This document shows positions 1-8,156 of a stretch of DNA of 64,000 nt, one piece after another (positions within the stretch are counted from its first letter, which is position 1; the number at the start of each line of letters is the position of its first letter). The notes under the pieces are model-generated. The model made no database searches. It saw only the letters and a program-made list of their open reading frames with translations, and was not told where the DNA came from. Origin of the DNA: Streptomyces umbrinus (GTDB lineage Bacteria > Actinomycetota > Actinomycetes > Streptomycetales > Streptomycetaceae); contig NZ_JAUSZI010000002.1 in NCBI RefSeq assembly GCF_030817415.1, positions 744,001 through 808,000 on the forward strand, in the 5' to 3' direction. The position numbers and the translations under genes are program-made.

Positions 1-576
1 GGGGATGGTGATGGCTGCGAGGATCACGGCAAGGACGGTGTAGGTGGTGCGCCAGCCGAAGTCTTCGGCGAGTACTGCGGTGAGTGGTGCGAAGGCGGTG
101 GAGGCCAGACCACCGGCCAGGGTGACGATCGTGAGGGCGCGGACGCTGTCCCTTCCCCACCAGCGGGTCACAGCGGCGAATGCGGGCTGGTAGAAGGTGG
201 AGGCCATGGCCAGCCCGGCGAGCAGCCAGGCAGCTGTGAAGACAGCCAGATTGGGTGCGTGTGCGAGGGCGAGCACGGCGATCACGCCGAGCAGTGATCC
301 GGTGGTCATCACGGCGCGTGGTCCCCGACGGTCGAGGACGCGACCGATGGGTATCCCCGCGAGCGCGGACACGATCAGGGCGCTCGAGAAGGCGCCGGTC
401 GTGGCGGTGGTGGACCAGCCGGTGTCCGCGGTGATGCGCGTGTTGAGGACCGGGAAGGCGTAGTAGACGATCCCCCAGCTGGTGATCTGAGTGGCGCACA
501 GGGCGGGCAGGACCGCGCGGGGCCGCGGCCGGTCCCCCGTTCCGGTCGCGGCCCCGCTGGTGTCGAGGTCTGCCAT
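1..576 (-). CDS. MFS transporter, N-terminal part (runs off the window)
   Basis: Reads from an ATG at 576 through about 190 residues of alternating hydrophobic helices and leaves the window at its left edge, so the C-terminal half is not visible. The loop between helices 2 and 3 carries the MFS signature (GRVLDRRGPR). The start lies 7 bp after the arsI stop with no clear ribosome site of its own, so translation is probably coupled to arsI and the gene is the third member of the arsO-arsI operon. That context suggests export of an arsenical, perhaps an organoarsenical or its oxidation product. This is inferred from position, as MFS substrates cannot be read from sequence. Confidence 0.8.
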   Translation of the reverse strand, partial: MADLDTSGAATGTGDRPRPRAVLPALCATQITSWGIVYYAFPVLNTRITADTGWSTTATTGAFSSALIVSALAGIPIGRVLDRRGPRAVMTTGSLLGVIAVLALAHAPNLAVFTAAWLLAGLAMASTFYQPAFAAVTRWWGRDSVRALTIVTLAGGLASTAFAPLTAVLAEDFGWRTTYTVLAVILAAITIP

Positions 577-583
577 CGGGCGG

Positions 584-1045
584 TCAGCAGCAGGTGCCGG
601 CCGCGGTGACCGACGGCTCCGTAACCGCTTCGGACGGGCTGGTGCAGCAGGTGCCGCCCGGTTGCTCGGCCAGGGTGTCGGCGTCGGCCTTGACGACGTA
701 CACCTCCCAGGGTTCCCCGCCCGGGCCATGGACCCAGACCTTGTCCTGGAGGGCGTAGCAGCAGGTGGTGTCGTTCTCCTCGGCGGTGGCCAGACCGGCT
801 TCAGCCAGCCGTGTGGTGGCGGCGTGCACGGCTTCGGTCGTCTCCACCTCGACGCCGAGGTGGTCCATACGGGTGTCCTCGCCTGCCGTGCCTTCGATCA
901 GGACGAGCTTCAGCGGCGGCTCGGCGACGGCGAAGTTGGCGTAGCCGTCGCGGAGTTTGGCCGGTTCGGTGCCGAACAGCTTGGTGTAGAAGGCGATGGA
1001 CGCGGTGAGGTCGGGGACGCGGAGGGCGAGCTGTACGCGGGACAT
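584..1045 (-). CDS. arsI: ArsI/CadI-family organoarsenical C-As lyase (VOC fold)
   Basis: A 153-residue vicinal-oxygen-chelate protein. Family members use Fe(II) and O2 to cleave the carbon-arsenic bond of trivalent organoarsenicals such as MAs(III). The expected metal ligands are visible as Gln5, His62 and Glu114, and the paired cysteines that bind trivalent arsenic are Cys95-Cys96 in a TTCCYA motif. The C-terminal tail is cysteine-rich, with CC pairs at 133-134 and 152-153. The ATG at 1045 is preceded by AGGAGG at good spacing. It lies 37 bp after arsO and 7 bp before an MFS gene in one operon. The related CadI proteins have less defined roles, but the ars context and the cysteine pair favour ArsI. 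Confidence 0.85.
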   Translation of the reverse strand: MSRVQLALRVPDLTASIAFYTKLFGTEPAKLRDGYANFAVAEPPLKLVLIEGTAGEDTRMDHLGVEVETTEAVHAATTRLAEAGLATAEENDTTCCYALQDKVWVHGPGGEPWEVYVVKADADTLAEQPGGTCCTSPSEAVTEPSVTAAGTCC

Positions 1046-1082
1046 GGCGAGCCTCCTGATGGGTGAGCGGTGGGGTGGCCGG

Positions 1083-2465
1083 TCAGCAGCCTCCGTCGGA
1101 CGGGGCCGGTGCGCCGATCCCGATCTGCAGGGTCGTGGGGGCTGCGCAGCATCCGCCGCCTTCGCCGCTCCGGGCGGCGTCGGAGTCGGGGTCGGAGTCG
1201 TCGAACAGACCCGCTCCACCGCACACTCCGGTCTCGGGCAGGGTCAACTCGACGCGCTCGGCGGCTTCCTGGTCACCTGCGAGTGATGCGGCGACGGAGC
1301 GGACCTGCTCGTAGCCGGTCATCGCGAGGAAGGTCGGGGCGCGGCCGTAGGACTTCATGCCCACCAGGTAGACGTCCTTCTCCGGGTGGGAGAGCTCGTT
1401 CACGCCGTGCGGGTAGACGGTGCCGCAGGAGTGGACGTTCGGGTCGATGAGCGGGGCCAGCGCGGTCGGGGCCTGGAGGCGTTCGTCGAGGCCGAGGCGG
1501 ATCTCGGAGAGGAAGGACAGGTCGGGGCGGAAGCCGGTGAGGACGATGATCTCGTCGACCGGATCCAGGCGGCGGCCGTCTTCGGCGACGAGCACCAGGC
1601 CCCCGTGGGCGCTGCGCTCGACAGCCTCGGTGCGGAAGCCGGTCGCGGCGGTTGCATGGCCGGCCTCGACGGCGGCCTTGGCGCGCAGGCCCAGGGCTCC
1701 GCGGGCGGGAAGCTCGTCGGCCTCGCCGCCCCCGTACGTGCCGGCGCCGATGCCGCGACGCAGGATCCACACCGCGTGCGTGCCGTCCTCGTCCTTCGCC
1801 AGGTCGGCGAGAGAGGCGAGGGCGGTGAAGGCGGAGGCTCCGGAGCCGACCACCGCGGTGCGCCTGCCCGCGTAGCGGGCGCGGACGGCCGGGTCCGTCA
1901 GGTCGGGCACCCGGTAGGAGATGCGCTCGGCAGCGGTCCTCTCGCCGAGGGCGGGCAGGCCGTCCGCGCCGATGGGGCCGGGTACGGACCAGGTGCCGGA
2001 GGCGTCGATGACGGCCCGGGCGGTGATCCGCTCCTCGCGGCCGTCGGCGTGTGTGAGGTGCACGGTGAAGGGCTGCTCGTTGCGGCCGGAGTCGACGATC
2101 CGGTCACGGCCCGCGCGGGCCGCTCCGGTCACGGTCGCGCCGAAGCGGACCCTGTTGCCGAGGACATCGGCCAGCGGCTGGAGGTACCGCTCGGCCCAGT
2201 CACCGCCCGTGGGGTACGTGGTTCCGTCGGGGCGGATCCAGCCGGTGGGGGCCAGCAGCTTCTCGGCGGCGGGGTCGACGAGCTCGGCCCAGGTGGAGAA
2301 CAGGCGCACATGCGACCAGTCGCGCACAGCGGTGGCCGCGGACGGGCCGGCTTCCAGGACCAGTGGTTCGATGCCGCGCTCGACGAGGTGGGCGGCGGCG
2401 GCCAAGCCGATGGGGCCTGCTCCGATCACCACGACGGGCAGCTGGTCGGCGATGGGCGCGTTCAC
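1083..2465 (-). CDS. arsO: ArsO-like flavin-dependent monooxygenase / FAD-NAD(P)-binding oxidoreductase
   Basis: About 460 residues. An N-terminal FAD Rossmann motif (GAGPIGLAAA) follows a GTG start at 2465, which has AAAGGGGA upstream; an alternative TTG at 2531 would sit inside the operator and is unlikely. A second dinucleotide motif (VGSGAS) appears near residue 205, and a TGFRPDLSFL segment closes the FAD domain, as in flavin-containing monooxygenases of actinomycete ars operons (ArsO). The C-terminal tail is rich in Cys and Gly with a CC pair, plausibly an arsenite-binding tail. It is the first gene of the operon with arsI and an MFS exporter, facing the ArsR operator at 2524-2555. The exact arsenic substrate of ArsO is not settled. 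Confidence 0.75.
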   Translation of the reverse strand: MNAPIADQLPVVVIGAGPIGLAAAAHLVERGIEPLVLEAGPSAATAVRDWSHVRLFSTWAELVDPAAEKLLAPTGWIRPDGTTYPTGGDWAERYLQPLADVLGNRVRFGATVTGAARAGRDRIVDSGRNEQPFTVHLTHADGREERITARAVIDASGTWSVPGPIGADGLPALGERTAAERISYRVPDLTDPAVRARYAGRRTAVVGSGASAFTALASLADLAKDEDGTHAVWILRRGIGAGTYGGGEADELPARGALGLRAKAAVEAGHATAATGFRTEAVERSAHGGLVLVAEDGRRLDPVDEIIVLTGFRPDLSFLSEIRLGLDERLQAPTALAPLIDPNVHSCGTVYPHGVNELSHPEKDVYLVGMKSYGRAPTFLAMTGYEQVRSVAASLAGDQEAAERVELTLPETGVCGGAGLFDDSDPDSDAARSGEGGGCCAAPTTLQIGIGAPAPSDGGC

Positions 2466-2523
2466 GAGATTCCCCTTTGATTCGACATCCGTCGATCCCT
2501 TGCGTGTCAAGCATGGCACCTGT

Positions 2524-2555
2524 TTCGACAAGCGTCAACATAGACGTTTGTCGAA
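2524..2555. promoter_or_regulatory. ArsR operator 1 (inverted repeat) in the arsO / btrH-like divergent promoter
   Basis: Inverted repeat with arms TTCGACAAGCGTC (2524-2536) and GACGTTTGTCGAA (2543-2555), 12 of 13 positions pairing, around the spacer AACATA. The same layout with the same spacer recurs over the arsR start at 3845-3876. It lies 59 bp upstream of the arsO GTG and 130 bp upstream of the btrH-like gene, so one ArsR could control both directions. Confidence 0.8.
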
Positions 2556-2685
2556 TCCAGAGGTCTCGATGCGGAACACATCGATGCAGCGGCGATCTGT
2601 ACGCGAAGTCCGGGCGGACGATGGGGGCTTCACTCTCACCCTGGAGGGTGGCGACCGGCGGCCGGCGCCTTGGAGGATGAGCGGC

Positions 2686-3669
2686 ATGACCATGGTGAAG
2701 GACATCGATGTCCGCGGCATGCAGCACTGCGAGACGACGACGCTCGGCGTGCTGCTGCGACATGAGGGACTCGACCTGTCCGAGCCCATGCTGTTCGGGC
2801 TCAGCTCCGGGCTGTCCTTCATCTACTGGGACAGCAAAGGCATGGGCTTTCCCTTCCTGGGAGGCCGGGTCAAGCCGTTCGAGCTCACCAGGAACCTGGC
2901 CGCCGCACTCGGGCTTGAGCTGATGGTCGGGGAGACCACCTCCCCGCGCAAGGCATGGCACAACGTGGCGGCCCCGATCGACGCCGGCCGGCCGGTCGGC
3001 CTTCAACTCGACAGCTACCACCTGGACTACTTCAGTACCAAGGTGCACTTCGGCGGGCATGTCGTGGCCATGTACGGCTACGACGAACAGGACGCCTACC
3101 TGGTGGACACCGACCCGCAGGGCGGAGCCGTCTCGACCAGCCTCGCGGCCCTGGCCAGAGCCAGGGCCGAGCGCGGCCCCATGACCGCCAAGCACCGCTC
3201 CTTCACCCTCGCAGTGCCCAGCAGTCCGACGTCACCGCAGGACCGGGTCATCCCCGCGATAAAGACGTGCGCCGACGCCTTCCTGAACCCGCCCATCGCG
3301 AACCTGGGCCACCGGGGCATCGAGAAGACCGCCAAGCACGTGCCGAAGTGGCTTCAGCGCAGCGACGATCCGCGGGAGGACCTGCCACGGGCCGCCCTCC
3401 TCATGGAGAGGGCCGGTACCGGCGGCGCCCTGTTCCGCAATCTCTACCGCGACTTCCTCGCCGAGTGCGCCGAGCTGATCGACAGCAGCCACCTGCGCAC
3501 CGGCCACGGGTTGTATGCCGAAGCCGCCACGCTCTGGACACAGGTGGCCGCACTCGTCACAGCAGCAGGCGAATCCGGCGACGCGAAGAACCTCGTGGAG
3601 GCCGGCTCCATCCTCGATGAGCTCTCGCGCATCGAACGCGATGCGATGCAGGCACTCAGCATGCTCTAG
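2686..3669 (+). CDS. BtrH N-terminal domain / DUF4872 protein, probable acyltransferase
   Basis: 327 residues. The N-terminal half matches BtrH-type domains, a papain/C39-like fold in which butirosin BtrH transfers an acyl group from a carrier protein to an amine. The likely triad is visible: Cys15 in MQHCETTT, His125 in GGHVVAMYG, and Asp141 in LVDTD. The C-terminal half is helical, as in the DUF4872 companion domain. The chosen ATG at 2686 has GGAGG nine bases upstream; ATG 2677 is too close to it and ATG 2692 is also possible. It faces arsO across ArsR operator 1 and is followed by arsR, so arsenic-responsive expression is likely. No carrier protein or peptide synthetase is nearby, so the substrate is unknown. 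Confidence 0.7.
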   Translation: MTMVKDIDVRGMQHCETTTLGVLLRHEGLDLSEPMLFGLSSGLSFIYWDSKGMGFPFLGGRVKPFELTRNLAAALGLELMVGETTSPRKAWHNVAAPIDAGRPVGLQLDSYHLDYFSTKVHFGGHVVAMYGYDEQDAYLVDTDPQGGAVSTSLAALARARAERGPMTAKHRSFTLAVPSSPTSPQDRVIPAIKTCADAFLNPPIANLGHRGIEKTAKHVPKWLQRSDDPREDLPRAALLMERAGTGGALFRNLYRDFLAECAELIDSSHLRTGHGLYAEAATLWTQVAALVTAAGESGDAKNLVEAGSILDELSRIERDAMQALSML

Positions 3670-3844
3670 GGAGCCGCCCGTCCGGCGGGCCGGGCGCGGG
3701 GGCCGCCCCGGGAACCCGCTGGGTGCTCTCGACGAACACGGCCGCCACTCCACCGGGAAGGCGCCTCCCCGCCCGTCGCCTCGCAGCCCAGCCGTTCGCA
3801 GCCCAGCCGCGCGGCGGTCGGGATTCCGACTCCTGGCCCACTAG

Positions 3845-3876
3845 TTCGACATGTGTCAACATAGACGTATGTCGAA
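3845..3876. promoter_or_regulatory. ArsR operator 2, overlapping the arsR start codon
   Basis: Inverted repeat with arms TTCGACATGTGTC (3845-3857) and GACGTATGTCGAA (3864-3876), 11 of 13 positions pairing, around the same AACATA spacer as operator 1. The arsR ATG at 3869 lies inside the right arm and no ribosome site precedes it. This points to a leaderless transcript whose promoter or start is covered directly by the repressor. Confidence 0.8.
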
Positions 3877-4237
3877 TGTCGAGGTGCTGCCGCTGCTGGA
3901 ACCCGAGGGTGCCGAGGCTGTGGCGCCCTGCTGCCCGCCGCTGTCCGAGCGCCCCTTCACCGTCGAAGAGGCGGAAAGGACTGCGCGGATGTTCAAGGCA
4001 CTCGGCGATCCGGTTCGTCTGCGTCTGTTCTCCCTGGTCGCCTCCCACGAGGGCGGAGAGGCGTGTGTGTGCGACATCTCCGACGTGGGCGTCTCGCAGC
4101 CGACCGTCTCCCATCACCTCAAGAAGCTCAGGGAGGCCGGACTGCTCACCTCCGAGCGGCGCGGCACATGGGTCTACTACCGCGTCGAGCCCTCGGTCGT
4201 GGCCGCACTCGGCGGGCTCCTCAGCCCCAAGAACTGA
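3869..4237 (+). CDS. arsR: ArsR-family arsenic-responsive repressor
   Basis: 122 residues with the ArsR winged helix: the wing ends in RRGTWVYYRVEP and the recognition helix is SQPTVSHHLKKL. The classical metal-sensing motif is present as Cys66-Val-Cys68-Asp in helix 3, and a further Cys21-Cys22 pair lies near the N-terminus and could supply extra thiolate ligands. An upstream in-frame ATG at 3851 would add six residues but would sit at the edge of the operator's left arm; ATG 3869 gives the usual N-terminus. It is probably the repressor for both 32-bp inverted repeats and so for arsO-arsI-MFS, the btrH-like gene and itself. Confidence 0.9.
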   Translation: MSNVEVLPLLEPEGAEAVAPCCPPLSERPFTVEEAERTARMFKALGDPVRLRLFSLVASHEGGEACVCDISDVGVSQPTVSHHLKKLREAGLLTSERRGTWVYYRVEPSVVAALGGLLSPKN

Positions 4238-4288
4238 CCCGCGCGCACGGCCGCCGGTGGGCACTGCCCGACGGCCGTACGCGGGTGA

Positions 4289-5608
4289 TCACATGTCGGC
4301 CGCGTCCACCACGGCGCCGAGGTCGACGAACTTGAAGCCGGTCGCCGTGCGCGTGCCACCGTCCCCGTCCGGCACCGCCGGGGTTTCCTGGCCGTCCTGG
4401 ACGACGAGCAGCCCGCGCGGATAGCGGGCTCCCAGCGGGGCGTTGAGCACGGCGGCTCCGTCGCACTCCTCCACACTGTCGAGCGTCGACGTGGCGGCCG
4501 CGATACGGAAGCCGCCCTCGTACTCGTTGCCCTCGCCCACCTCGCGGTCGTACAGGGCGAAGGTGTTGTCGCCCTGGCTGGAGGCGAGCAGGTAGCCGTC
4601 GCCGTCCTTCTCCTGGAACAGGGTCAGGCCCTCGACGTCGGCCGACAGACGCTTGCCGCCGTAGCCGGGGTCGGCGCCCGGTGCGCACTCCTCGGTGTCC
4701 TCGTCGTAGACACCGGGAACGCCGTACTCCTTCACCTTGTCCACCAGGACCGGCTTGCCCGTGAGGTCGGCGCGCAGCCGCCAGATACCGATGTCCTCCT
4801 GGCCGGCGTAGAGCGTGCCGGTCGCCGGGTCGACGACCATGCCCTCGACCTGCGGGAGTTCGCCGGGCTCCGCGCAGGAACTCCACGTCATGCCGTCGGG
4901 CAGACGGAACGAGGACGGCAGATCAAGGGTGCGCACCTTGCGGTAGCCGACGGTGCCACCCGCGCCCGGGCGGAGTTCGAGCAGGGCGAGGCGGGTCCGC
5001 TCTCGCCGGCTGACCAGAGCGTACGTACGTCCGGTGGCCTTGTCCGTCCAGGTGGCCAAGCCGTATGTGGTCCGCTGGTCGTTGATCTCGGCCTGGTCGG
5101 CGGAGAACACCGGAGTGGCGGCCGGGTCGGTGACGTCGGTCAGCGGGCCGTCCGGCTTCGACGGATCGATGCGGTAGATCCGCAGCCGGTCGCCGCCCCG
5201 GTCACTCACCACAGCCACGTCGGCCCGGCCGGTCGAGGTGCGCAGGCCGGTGACGAGGTCGACATTGTTGTAGCGTCCCGGTGCGTCGTCCAGCCCCGGC
5301 GGGCGCGGAGCGGGCAGCGACTGCACCAGGTGCGCGTCCAGATCGTAGACACGCAGCCCGCCCTCCTTGGCGGTCGCGACGACGAGGCTGCGCCCGGGGT
5401 CGGCGGCATTGCGCCAGATCGCAGGGTCGTCGGCATCCGAGTTGCCCCCCGCCTGGTCGTCGTAGAGCGCCGCGGTCTCACTGGTGGCGGTCACGACAGG
5501 CAGAACGGGCGCGCCCGCTCCTGCAGGAGATGCTCCGAGCAGAGTGACGAGCACGATGCCCGAGGCGAGGGCTGTGCCTCTTCGCTTGGTGCAGTGCCTC
5601 GTTGTCAC
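4289..5608 (-). CDS. Secreted beta-propeller phytase
   Basis: 439 residues starting at a GTG (5608) with AAGGAAG upstream. A basic n-region (TTRHCTKRRG) and a hydrophobic stretch ending in ASPAGAGA form a signal peptide. The mature part matches 3-phytases of the beta-propeller type, which hydrolyse phytate with calcium: DADDPAIW near the start of the propeller, YNNVDL, SDRGGDRLRIYRI, the acidic YDEDTEECAPG segment, SADVEGLTLF and SSQGDNTFALYDR are typical. It is probably a phosphate-scavenging exoenzyme unrelated to the ars genes on either side. It converges on arsR with a 51-bp gap that holds an imperfect GC-rich inverted repeat, perhaps a shared terminator. Confidence 0.88.
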   Translation of the reverse strand: MTTRHCTKRRGTALASGIVLVTLLGASPAGAGAPVLPVVTATSETAALYDDQAGGNSDADDPAIWRNAADPGRSLVVATAKEGGLRVYDLDAHLVQSLPAPRPPGLDDAPGRYNNVDLVTGLRTSTGRADVAVVSDRGGDRLRIYRIDPSKPDGPLTDVTDPAATPVFSADQAEINDQRTTYGLATWTDKATGRTYALVSRRERTRLALLELRPGAGGTVGYRKVRTLDLPSSFRLPDGMTWSSCAEPGELPQVEGMVVDPATGTLYAGQEDIGIWRLRADLTGKPVLVDKVKEYGVPGVYDEDTEECAPGADPGYGGKRLSADVEGLTLFQEKDGDGYLLASSQGDNTFALYDREVGEGNEYEGGFRIAAATSTLDSVEECDGAAVLNAPLGARYPRGLLVVQDGQETPAVPDGDGGTRTATGFKFVDLGAVVDAADM

Positions 5609-5968
5609 AGGCGCTTCCTTAGCTGTCGGCGGTGGGCGGTCGGATCAAAGACATGCTCATGGTCCGAGGGACAGCTTGCGTACAGAGAACCGTGAACTGT
5701 CCATGGCATCACGGGAATTACCCCAACAGGTCGGCCGGAGTTCGCCCTAGAGTCGCCCGGCCGACCGAAGCCGCGATGGCCGCCACCTCAGGTGTGCTGA
5801 AAGTCGCCCCTCACCCACGCCGCGGGCGAGGGCGAAGGCGAAGCGAGGGCGGTCGGAGGATCCTCCGGAGGATTCATCACGCGTCACTGCCGGAAGCCGT
5901 GGCCGCCCAAGGAGGTGAAGTCATCGGCACTCTGGAGCCACCGATCACCACAGCGTGGGTCGTCCGCG
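5609..5968. other. Intergenic region between phytase and aquaporin genes
   Basis: About 360 bp without a convincing gene. It should hold the phytase promoter on the minus strand. A 14-bp perfect palindrome (CGGAGGATCCTCCG, 5854-5867) lies near the end of the aquaporin gene and may be a weak terminator stem. One half-site resembling a PHO-box repeat (GTTCACGG on the minus strand, about 5691-5698) is present without the expected direct-repeat partner. Confidence 0.4.
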
Positions 5969-6754
5969 TCATCGGGCGGGCTGCTCCACGGCGGCTCGGC
6001 CCGGCATGAAGATCAGGGCGACCAGTGCCAACCCGACCACGGCGCCGACGAGTTGCATCCCGATGAAGGCCGCGAGCGATCCGGGCGCGATGCCCGCGAA
6101 GGAGTCGGTGAAGGTGCGGCCGATGGTCACCGCCGGGTTTGCGAAGGAGGTGGAGGAGGTGAACCAGTAGGCGGCGCCGATGTAGGAGGCAACCGCGACA
6201 GGCGCGAAGCGCAGCCGGTCGGTACGGGCGAGGCCGAAGATCAGCAGGATCAGACCCGCGGTGGCGACGACCTCGCCTAGCAGCAGATGGCCGGCCGAGC
6301 GGTCGTGCGTGGACCACGTCACCGGCGGCGCGTCGAACATCGCGTTGGCGAGTACGGCTCCCGCGATCGCGCCGACGATCTGGGCGGGGACGTACACGGC
6401 GGCCTCCCGGGTGGTGACGCCCGCACCTCCGCGCCGGGCGGTCCACCAGTCGGCCAGCGTCACCGCCGGGTTGAAGTGCGCACCCGACACCGGGCCGAGC
6501 AGCACGATCAGCACCCCGAGTCCGAAGACCGTGGCCAGCGAGTTGGCCAGCAGCTGCACTCCCACGTCACGGGTCAGTTCGGTGGCCTGGATGCCGGAGC
6601 CCACCACGATCGCCACCAGGGCGGCGGTGCCGACCAGTTCGGCTGCGGCCCTGGAGGTCAGCGGTGTACGGGGCGGGGTGGCACCCGGTGCGGGCTGCGG
6701 CTCGCCGGCGGCGGCCATGACGGACTCCGCGGCGGACTCGTGGGTGGCGGTCAA
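5969..6754 (-). CDS. MIP/aquaporin-family channel, probable arsenite channel
   Basis: 261 residues with six membrane segments and the two half-helix motifs of the family, Asn95-Pro-Ala (GAHFNPAVT) and Asn206-Pro-Ala (SFANPAVT). The residue after the second NPA is Val209, where water and glycerol channels normally have the filter arginine; this suggests a wider or altered pore. It follows arsR2 by 39 bp and faces arsC, the arrangement in which an aquaglyceroporin replaces ArsB and lets arsenite made by ArsC leave the cell. The start is a TTG at 6754 with AAGGAGTG upstream. The N-terminal 30 residues are Pro/Ala-rich and probably cytoplasmic. Confidence 0.85.
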   Translation of the reverse strand: MTATHESAAESVMAAAGEPQPAPGATPPRTPLTSRAAAELVGTAALVAIVVGSGIQATELTRDVGVQLLANSLATVFGLGVLIVLLGPVSGAHFNPAVTLADWWTARRGGAGVTTREAAVYVPAQIVGAIAGAVLANAMFDAPPVTWSTHDRSAGHLLLGEVVATAGLILLIFGLARTDRLRFAPVAVASYIGAAYWFTSSTSFANPAVTIGRTFTDSFAGIAPGSLAAFIGMQLVGAVVGLALVALIFMPGRAAVEQPAR

Positions 6755-6792
6755 CAGTCACTCCTTGGAACGGCCGCGGCGAGCGACGGGAA

Positions 6793-7101
6793 TCAGGGGC
6801 AGGCCCGCTTGTTGTCGACGGCGGCACGGGCGGACTCGGCCAGGTCGGCGAACTGGCCCGCGAGCCGGGCGATGACGTCGGCGCAGAGTTTGTAGTAGGT
6901 GAACCGTCCGCACGGCTCCGTCTCCACCACCCCGGCCTCTCGCAGCACTCTCAGGTGGTTGGAGAGGTTGGTCTGCTTCGCGCCGGTCTCCTCGATCAGG
7001 TGGGTGGTGCAGAGCGTCTCCTGGGCGAGCAGAGTGACGATCTTCAGGCGGAGCGGGTCGGACAGAACCCGCATCAGATCAGTGTCGACTGACGTCAGCA
7101 T
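6793..7101 (-). CDS. arsR: ArsR-family repressor, second type
   Basis: 102 residues with a winged-helix domain (recognition helix QTNLSNHLRVL, wing GRFTYYKL). It lacks the CxC motif in helix 3 and instead has Cys31 (ETLCTTHL), Cys64, Cys73 and Cys101, so its metal site differs from the first ArsR in this window. It is the first gene of a two-gene operon with the aquaporin. No ribosome site precedes the ATG at 7101, and an inverted repeat begins two bases upstream, so it may be leaderless and self-repressed. Arsenic is the most likely effector given arsC and arsT remnants across the promoter. Confidence 0.85.
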   Translation of the reverse strand: MLTSVDTDLMRVLSDPLRLKIVTLLAQETLCTTHLIEETGAKQTNLSNHLRVLREAGVVETEPCGRFTYYKLCADVIARLAGQFADLAESARAAVDNKRACP

Positions 7102-7103
7102 GC

Positions 7104-7123
7104 ACTGATACTGTCACATCAGT
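7104..7123. promoter_or_regulatory. Probable operator of the second ArsR
   Basis: Inverted repeat ACTGAT (7104-7109) and ATCAGT (7118-7123) immediately upstream of the arsR2 ATG. Related copies of the half-site lie nearby: GCTGAT at 7129-7134 and ACTGAT at 7144-7149, suggesting several binding sites. The sequence differs completely from the operators at 2524 and 3845. Confidence 0.55.
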
Positions 7124-7250
7124 CGAGGCTGATACCAGCTTGGACTGATCCCTGGGACCCGCATCCCCACACCTGTGGGGCCCACACCCCGAAGGGGATT
7201 GCCGTGGCTGCCTCCCCCTCCCCCACCGCCCGTCCTGCGCTCCGACCGCC

Positions 7251-7349
7251 GTAGTCCGCGGCATCCGCGGCATCCGCGGCATCCGCGGCATCCGCGACGA
7301 GATCGACGCCCACATCACCGGACTGCTCGACTCCCTGCCGCACGCCTGA
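7251..7349 (+). pseudogene. Remnant of an arsC 3' end with expanded GIR repeat
   Basis: The frame ending at the TGA at 7347-7349 reads as a string of Arg-Gly-Ile triplets and then RDEIDAHITGLLDSLPHA. That matches the C-terminal helix of thioredoxin-coupled arsenate reductases; the intact arsC downstream has PIRDEIRTRIEALIAEID at the same place. No start or catalytic part is recognisable upstream. It is therefore best read as the tail of an older arsC copy, left by deletion or recombination, with a tandem-repeat expansion (7255-7299) at the break. Confidence 0.55.
7255..7299. repeat. 9-bp tandem repeat
   Basis: Four perfect copies of TCCGCGGCA (7255-7290) and a partial fifth copy ending at 7299. 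In the arsC remnant frame each unit encodes Arg-Gly-Ile. Confidence 0.9.
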
Positions 7350-7408
7350 CCGGCCGGGCCCGACACCACCAGTGCTCCACTTGATCCGCTTCGCGAAGGA
7401 ATGAACCG

Positions 7409-7831
7409 ATGTCCTCGACTCCGCCGCTCGCCTCCGTGCTGTTCGTCTGTGTCCACAACGCAGGGCGTTCGCAGATGGCCGCCGGATTCCTCAACCACCT
7501 CGCGGGCGACCGGATCGAGGTCCGTTCCGCCGGCTCGATCCCGGGCAACCAGGTCAACCCGGCCGCGGTCGAGGCCATGAAGGAACTCGGCGTCGACATC
7601 TCCGACCAGAAGCCGAAGATCCTCACCACCGAGGCCGTCCAGGCGTCCGACTACGTCATCACCATGGGCTGCGGCGACGCCTGCCCGATCTTCCCCGGCA
7701 AGCACTATCTCGACTGGGCCCTCGAAGACCCGGCTGGCAAGGGCGTCGAGTCGGTGCGCCCCATCCGCGACGAGATCCGGACCCGTATCGAGGCCCTGAT
7801 CGCCGAGATCGACGCGAAGCGCGAGGCGTGA
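7409..7831 (+). CDS. arsC: Arsenate reductase, low-molecular-weight phosphatase type
   Basis: 140 residues. Reduces arsenate to arsenite with thioredoxin (or a similar thiol system) as electron donor. The catalytic P-loop CX5R is Cys14-VHNAG-Arg20, followed by the typical SQMAAGF. Two further cysteines, Cys88 and Cys92 in MGCGDACPIFPG, are placed to relay the disulfide, and YLDW carries the acid aspartate. ATG 7409 has AAGGA nine bases upstream. The stop overlaps the GTG of the arsT pseudogene (GTGA), which fits an arsC-arsT operon. With arsT broken, regeneration must rely on a thioredoxin system encoded elsewhere. Confidence 0.92.
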   Translation: MSSTPPLASVLFVCVHNAGRSQMAAGFLNHLAGDRIEVRSAGSIPGNQVNPAAVEAMKELGVDISDQKPKILTTEAVQASDYVITMGCGDACPIFPGKHYLDWALEDPAGKGVESVRPIRDEIRTRIEALIAEIDAKREA

Positions 7832-8156
7832 GCACGGTGACCGCGACGAACGACGTACACGAGGTCCTCGTCATCGGCTCCGGCCCTGCCGGATACACCG
7901 CCGCTCTCTGCACCGCCCGCGACGAGCTCAAACCGCTGTCTTCGGCGGCGCCACATTCGTCGGCGGCGCACTGACCACGACCGCCGAGGTCGAGAACTTC
8001 CCCGGCTTTACCGAGGGCGTCGACGGGCCTGTCCTCATGGAGAACATGCGGGCCCAGGCCGAGAGGCTCGATGCAGAGATGGCCGACGACGACATCATCG
8101 AGGTCGATCTGACGGGGGACAGCAACTGCGACAGGGCTTCGAGCGGCGGGCCCTGA
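7828..8156 (+). pseudogene. arsT: Frameshifted and truncated thioredoxin-reductase-like arsT
   Basis: Starts with a GTG overlapping the arsC stop. It reads VLVIGSGPAGYTAALCTARDELKPL, here quoted only to show the TrxB FAD motif GSGPAG, and then falls out of frame at about 7938, where one G appears to be missing. The other frame continues correctly with VFGGATFVGGALTTTAEVEN, the start of the FAD domain in TrxB, up to DDIIEVDLTGD. It then ends at a TGA (8154-8156). The CxxC redox centre and the NADPH domain are absent, so it cannot be a working reductase. Confidence 0.8.

Follow-up and report, generated by a model that had tools for sequence, protein, structure and literature searches.

The window, as we call the whole 64,000-nucleotide stretch of Streptomyces umbrinus DNA analysed here, carries an ars locus that contains a gene for a BtrH_N-DUF4872 acyltransferase-like protein (Table 1). 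The neighbours of this gene are an MFS gene, ArsI, a flavoprotein that we call FMO1, ArsR1, a phytase-like gene, a MIP channel, ArsR2, and an ArsC-like protein. The MFS gene, which adjoins ArsI, is incomplete and extends past the edge of the window, and the ArsC-like protein passes the Pfam LMWPc cut-off but falls short of those that NCBIfam sets for arsenate reductases. The original prediction had placed ArsI beside the acyltransferase, and its score against the NCBIfam model confirms the assignment. ArsR1 has a CVC motif, which we take to have an As(III) role. ArsI and FMO1 both have cysteine-bearing C-terminal tails. Directly after the arsC-like gene lies a truncated thioredoxin-reductase relic (arsT-like, named by eye; 7849-8140) with a frameshift near 7950. 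A Pfam scan of the seven neighbours and one fragment in window 1-8000 found no gene for a carrier, a synthetase or ligase, a loading enzyme, or As-C bond formation, in agreement with the earlier statement that neither carrier nor synthetase lies here.

Table 1. Features around the acyltransferase gene, in window coordinates
Feature	Position	Strand	Details
ArsI/CadI-family VOC protein	584..1045	-	NCBIfam ArsI 204.7 bits, cut-off 116
Flavoprotein FMO1 (arsO of the original prediction)	1083..2465	-	NCBIfam ArsO 46 bits, cut-off 425
Operator-like site A	2480..2496	-	before FMO1
Operator B (putative)	2524..2555	+	near-palindrome TTCGACAAGCGTCAACATAGACGTTTGTCGAA; before the ArsO-like FMO2 gene in relatives
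FMO2 5' relic	2565..2597	+	around the old FMO2 start codon
FMO2 internal relic	2599..2668	+	residues about 96-116 and on; joined to the 5' relic after deletion
GGAGGATGAGCGGC	2672..2685	+	ribosome-binding site and leader common to relatives; remainder of the acyltransferase gene's own 5' flank
BtrH_N-DUF4872 acyltransferase-like gene	2686..3669	+	327 aa; Cys15-His125-Asp141
FMO2 3' relic	3712..3762	+	after the acyltransferase; 83% to L075, E 1e-9 (database of five loci)
Operator C (putative)	3845..3876	+	at the start of arsR1
ArsR1 repressor	3851..4237	+	CVC motif read by eye; start likelier ATG 3869

The acyltransferase ORF runs from an ATG at 2686 to a stop at 3667-3669, with a GGAGG 9 nt before the start codon. 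The Pfam domains BtrH_N (PF14399; E 4e-45, 153.7 bits vs a gathering threshold of 29.7) and DUF4872 (PF16169; E 2e-50, 171.8 bits vs 28) together span nearly the whole protein, a likeness to BtrH, the butirosin acyltransferase. Its sole NCBIfam match, over the full length, is DarH (NF053550), a BtrH-related acyltransferase; at 153.9 bits the score lies below the curated equivalog cut-off of 300, and a DarH identity was rejected on this ground. Cys15, His125, and Asp141 are invariant in all 28 sequences compared (the window copy and 27 relatives of 64-92% identity). The predicted BtrH-like protein with an intact Cys15-His125-Asp141 triad is thus borne out, and the residues would form a papain-like Cys-His-Asp triad with a putative catalytic role. 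The mean pairwise dN/dS of the window copy, 0.31, is like that of 19 other copies (0.26-0.45) and gives no sign of relaxed constraint; judged from these sequences, the ORF is under purifying selection. The genome holds no paralogue at E <= 1e-3, and phage carriage was not seen, with no matches in 50,697 phage records and none confirmed in viral contigs. Elsewhere, one relative's copy is interrupted by an in-frame TAG stop (G055:C3:1058854-1059834), and fragmentary or split copies, some at contig ends, occur in six genomes (G242, G252, G270, G343, G119, and G173). Given this stop and these fragments, the gene may be lost often across relatives.

The structure model of the protein has a mean pLDDT of 59, with residues 1-64 under 50. 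In Foldseek, all 12 matches of this weak model with E < 1e-3 are to AziU3, CtaG, or CcbD, papain-fold enzymes that form amides or are akin to such enzymes, at 12-16% identity with TM-scores of 0.27-0.40 and rmsd of 14-21; unrelated helical bundles occupy the five best VIA rows, and a search of solved structures by sequence gave no convincing match. CtaG variants named C11A, H128A, and D144N place its His and Asp 16 residues apart, the same spacing as His125-Asp141, so that Cys11/His128/Asp144 parallel Cys15/His125/Asp141. CtaG is proposed to transfer hydroxybenzoate between carriers (PMC6772006), and CcbD works by a ping-pong mechanism through a Cys thioester formed from a carrier protein (PMC12945683); both belong to antibiotic pathways with carriers. 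CcbD has a Cys-His-Glu triad, whereas the protein here has Cys-His-Asp, and AziU3 is known to us by its structure title. BtrH is described as an acyl carrier protein:aminoglycoside acyltransferase, closely related to families C39 and C70 (PMC10318531); unlike the butirosin system, the gene here is an orphan with no carrier or ligase gene among the scanned neighbours. A BtrH-like peptidase, there named darE, is listed in a dialkylresorcinol cluster (PMC3949708). Taken together, these weak fold matches suggest amide formation from a carrier thioester, and the protein is probably an enzyme that acylates an amine.

Two 41-nt copies, 85% alike, lie at 2524-2564, before the acyltransferase gene, and at 3845-3885, at the start of arsR1. 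The 12.4-Mb genome contains the operator core pattern TTCGACANNYGTCAACATAGACG two times, in each case at the ars locus, and the pattern read backwards not at all. The ArsR-type operator is also kept in the ars loci of relatives that have no acyltransferase there, and the original claim of such an operator upstream of the gene was therefore well founded. To compare the locus, we used FMO1 homologues at E <= 1e-60, which are present in 163 of 295 genomes of the genus, and fetched 30 FMO1 loci, the window itself among them; the FMO1-ArsR1 interval was readable in 27 of the other 29. Every one of these 27 intervals contains at least one operator core, and by the strict pattern 24 contain two (one in L073, L077, and L086). 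A conserved ArsR-type operator upstream makes arsenic-inducible expression of the acyltransferase plausible. A sigma-70-type scan found no promoter, a negative that says little for Streptomyces.

None of the 29 relatives' FMO1 loci contains the acyltransferase. What some of them carry between operators B and C, that is, between FMO1 and arsR, is a second, ArsO-like monooxygenase (flavoprotein) gene, which we call FMO2. With the L089 protein as reference, FMO2 is full or nearly full-length in 5 of the 27 intervals (L070, L075, L089, L090, and L092, the last aligning in two pieces), decayed or partial in three (L079, L077, and L087), and not detectable by tblastn in the remaining 19. Aligned along the full NCBIfam ArsO model, three FMO2 proteins that we tested reach 222-246 bits, below its cut-off of 425, vs 46 bits for FMO1. 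The flavoprotein that had been named arsO is therefore not the ArsO-like gene of this locus; that gene is FMO2, which is destroyed here.

Remnants of FMO2 can be recognised on both sides of the acyltransferase gene. In a database of the five loci, window 2466-2597, a stretch containing the former FMO2 start, aligns with L070 at 79% (E 5e-27), and window 2599-2652 matches L075 and L089 at 76-78% (E 2e-6); by tblastn the internal piece corresponds to FMO2 residues 96-116 (E 4e-4). When 845 kb of other loci were searched, the short 5' piece by itself (2560-2597) gave a weak match, to L070 at E 0.004, and the internal piece had its best matches in L089, L075, and L070. The best matches of the 3' piece in the same 845 kb are L075, L079, and L089, with L033, which is no FMO2 locus, close behind L089. 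We read FMO2 in the window as a relic, with the acyltransferase gene between its remnants. The junction of old and new sequence (query 2560-2760) is absent as a whole from 150 relatives' genomes, the window's own genome excepted; the query matched only its acyltransferase part or short stretches. For the acyltransferase gene itself, the relatives' similarity to this query begins at 2672 or later. Insertion best accounts for this placement of the gene within what is left of an ArsO-like one. A leader ORF from the ATG at 2569 was considered as an in-frame FMO2 fusion and rejected, since the old FMO2 start region is out of frame with the acyltransferase; the internal relic is in the same frame.

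Linkage of the acyltransferase to ars genes elsewhere was examined with eight protein queries from this locus (ArsI, FMO1, ArsR1, phytase, MIP, ArsR2, ArsC, and the partial MFS protein), a set to which Acr3, ArsB, and ArsM do not belong. In a scan of genome contigs that yielded 34 acyltransferase loci, including two fragments, and flanks of up to 10 kb per side, no query matched above 50 bits; the highest score, 45.8 bits at 31%, came from an ArsR-family protein in L016. When further genomes and plasmids were added, L016 was still alone above 45 bits, in a sample of loci where some flanks extend 1.5 kb per side. Counting distant relatives and fragments, 91 of the 392 genomes searched in the genus have a match to the acyltransferase at E <= 1e-20. 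Among the 295 genomes common to the acyltransferase and FMO1 searches, own genome included, FMO1 is present in 36 of 64 with the acyltransferase vs 127 of 231 without it (odds ratio 1.05, P 0.89; 1.02 and P 1.0 with the own genome left out), and the two genes are distributed independently across the genus. They lie on one contig in 15 of the 27 genomes for which both places are listed, separated by 82 kb to 6.8 Mb. The recurrence near ars genes that the original prediction had proposed to look for thus amounts to one weak ArsR-family match. An ArsR-type operator at the promoter, as expected of an ars accessory gene, is present in the form of predicted operator B; recurrent linkage to the ars genes queried was not found. 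Among the open-access papers listed by our text searches, none is about the BtrH_N-DUF4872 family in arsenic metabolism.

The family's own neighbourhoods are scattered. No neighbour ORF cluster other than the acyltransferase itself is shared by at least four of the 34 loci, and neither these nor a larger set of 83 loci (some genomes counted twice, the window included) revealed a recurrent carrier or loading-enzyme neighbour. In the 83 loci the most frequent neighbour, at 13, is a directly upstream MerR-GyrI gene, whose product combines a MerR HTH with a GyrI-like small-molecule-binding domain; on plasmids of two Streptomyces it overlaps the acyltransferase gene by a few bases. Next come XRE-type regulators (by eye) at varying places in eight loci, and then blocks found in 4-6 loci each, some common to near relatives and at least one within a single tree subclade; we rejected the XRE genes and these blocks as functional partners, taking them as common families or shared descent. 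The gene thus appears from its surroundings to be an orphan, self-standing one. In a FastTree phylogeny of 90 distinct relatives, the window copy, and two outgroups, the least inclusive clade uniting the window copy with those marked by MITE-like ends (see below) has 35 tips (support 0.76), none MerR-coupled, vs 16 of 56 ingroup tips outside it. The MerR-GyrI coupling, a feature of a sister clade, points to a response to a small molecule in these relatives.

Signs of movement were sought in the flanks. A GGCCTGTCCGGCGGATCATG-like motif (<=4 mismatches) stands at -85 to -90 before the start codon in 11 of 51 distinct relatives' flanks and 0 to +2 after the stop in six, with both places occupied in three and always in direct orientation. 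The same motif terminates short MITE-like elements found elsewhere in these genomes (L097-L126), a family of 90-295 nt with ends GGGCCTGTCCGGCGGATCA that is often TA- or CTAG-flanked. With the repeat itself left out, 12 of 52 distinct upstream regions match MITE interiors, vs 7 of 2000 random stretches; the window's upstream region, among the 52, does not. In L001 the sequence 3' of the gene is, on the other strand, the end of a transposase-like frame (GRSRGGLNCKIHFAGEG, by eye). The window copy has kept only the last 14 nt of the relatives' 5' flank and has no MITE-like end, and its genome contains no copy of the MITE-end motif at <=2 mismatches. Around the acyltransferase gene we found neither a complete element nor a right end. 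The two-sided terminal repeats with a target duplication that would mark a cargo gene borne by an IS or MITE were not seen. An empty-site query built on G136 found its two halves, among the matches listed, only in different genomes (G067; G024 and G072). Precise transposition is supported in part only. Mobility as such has the support of the scattered neighbourhoods and, in part, of the element ends; the fixed distance of the gene behind a MITE-like end in some relatives is possibly a trace of its movement.

What can be read from these comparisons is that relics lie on both sides, that relatives have FMO2 in this place, that linkage is lacking at the other copies examined, and that ORF and triad are intact. 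We consider it probable, at roughly three chances in four, that a self-standing, horizontally moving BtrH_N-DUF4872 gene landed in the decaying FMO2 of an ArsR-controlled ars locus and captured its promoter. The capture most likely came about through landing in dead arsO-like DNA. Transcription of the acyltransferase would then start at the former FMO2 promoter, governed by operator B, and be derepressed by arsenic, which gives the plausible arsenic-responsive expression a concrete origin. As family and fold suggest, Cys15 would be acylated by a carrier-protein (or CoA) thioester, and His125 and Asp141 would help to pass the acyl group to an amine, forming an amide. Since the gene landed inside a dead gene, its arsenic control was probably gained by accident and not through a role in arsenic chemistry.

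The best surviving alternative, which we regard as unlikely, is that the landed gene is a passenger without present function, transcribed by chance and decaying like its neighbours. The locus is indeed decaying, as the relics of FMO2 and of the frameshifted thioredoxin reductase (about 7849-8140) attest, and other copies are the fragments or split genes noted above; against this, the ORF is intact, the triad invariant, and dN/dS no higher than in relatives. Less likely still is the view first put forward, that of a dedicated organoarsenical N-acyltransferase detoxifying an amino-bearing arsenical as ArsN1 does arsinothricin. The conserved operator, the adjacent ArsI and MFS genes, purifying selection on the ORF, and the ArsN1 precedent speak for it, and the protein would likewise be an acyl-transferring enzyme in an ars locus. 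Against it, ArsN1 is a GNAT-fold enzyme found repeatedly in ars operons (PMC6465285), and neither holds for the protein here; the other copies examined are unlinked to this locus's ars genes, the gene sits in a gene relic, and nothing found here ties the family's substrate to arsenic or suggests an arsenic-containing substrate for this enzyme. A role in organoarsenical detoxification or synthesis is consequently not supported. The remaining proposal, a step in making an arsenic-containing metabolite, has the neighbourhood and the BtrH-type family and fold in its favour and is very improbable, given that the gene is an orphan elsewhere and that the neighbours scanned in window 1-8000 include no carrier, synthetase, or As-C bond-forming gene.

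If the capture by a landing gene is real, a stress promoter has been reused by a stray gene while the relics of the gene it replaced are still readable. The case also warns against reading function from a single neighbourhood, as the gene resembles a new arsenic enzyme only through its landing behind an ArsR-type operator. The family is widespread and uncharacterised; because its commonest adjacent partner is a regulator of a type that binds small molecules, the question of its substrate can be put to the test. Tentatively, and with the odds against it, we raise the idea that these are single-gene mobile acyltransferases of Streptomyces directed against small molecules, with one clade coupled to a drug-sensing MerR-GyrI-like regulator and another that lost the regulator, was picked up by MITE or IS ends, spread alone, and takes its promoters from where it lands. 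If true, resistance would here rest on a new chemistry, in which a papain-fold enzyme and not a GNAT carries out the acylation.

BtrH-like genes also occur several together in L174-L176 (G280:C89, G350:C1): four over about 29 kb in G280, one of them at 27%, and two in the G350 stretch; G335 has three within 29 kb. By eye, the G280 stretch includes a TrpB-like enzyme, a molybdopterin oxidoreductase, radical-SAM enzymes, nitrilases, and a UvrA-like protein, and has the look of a biosynthetic cluster. Distant relatives of BtrH (27-29%) lie on Rhodococcus and Acinetobacter plasmids (L129-L131, L133), where they adjoin ferredoxin-P450-reductase sets and PaaI thioesterases.
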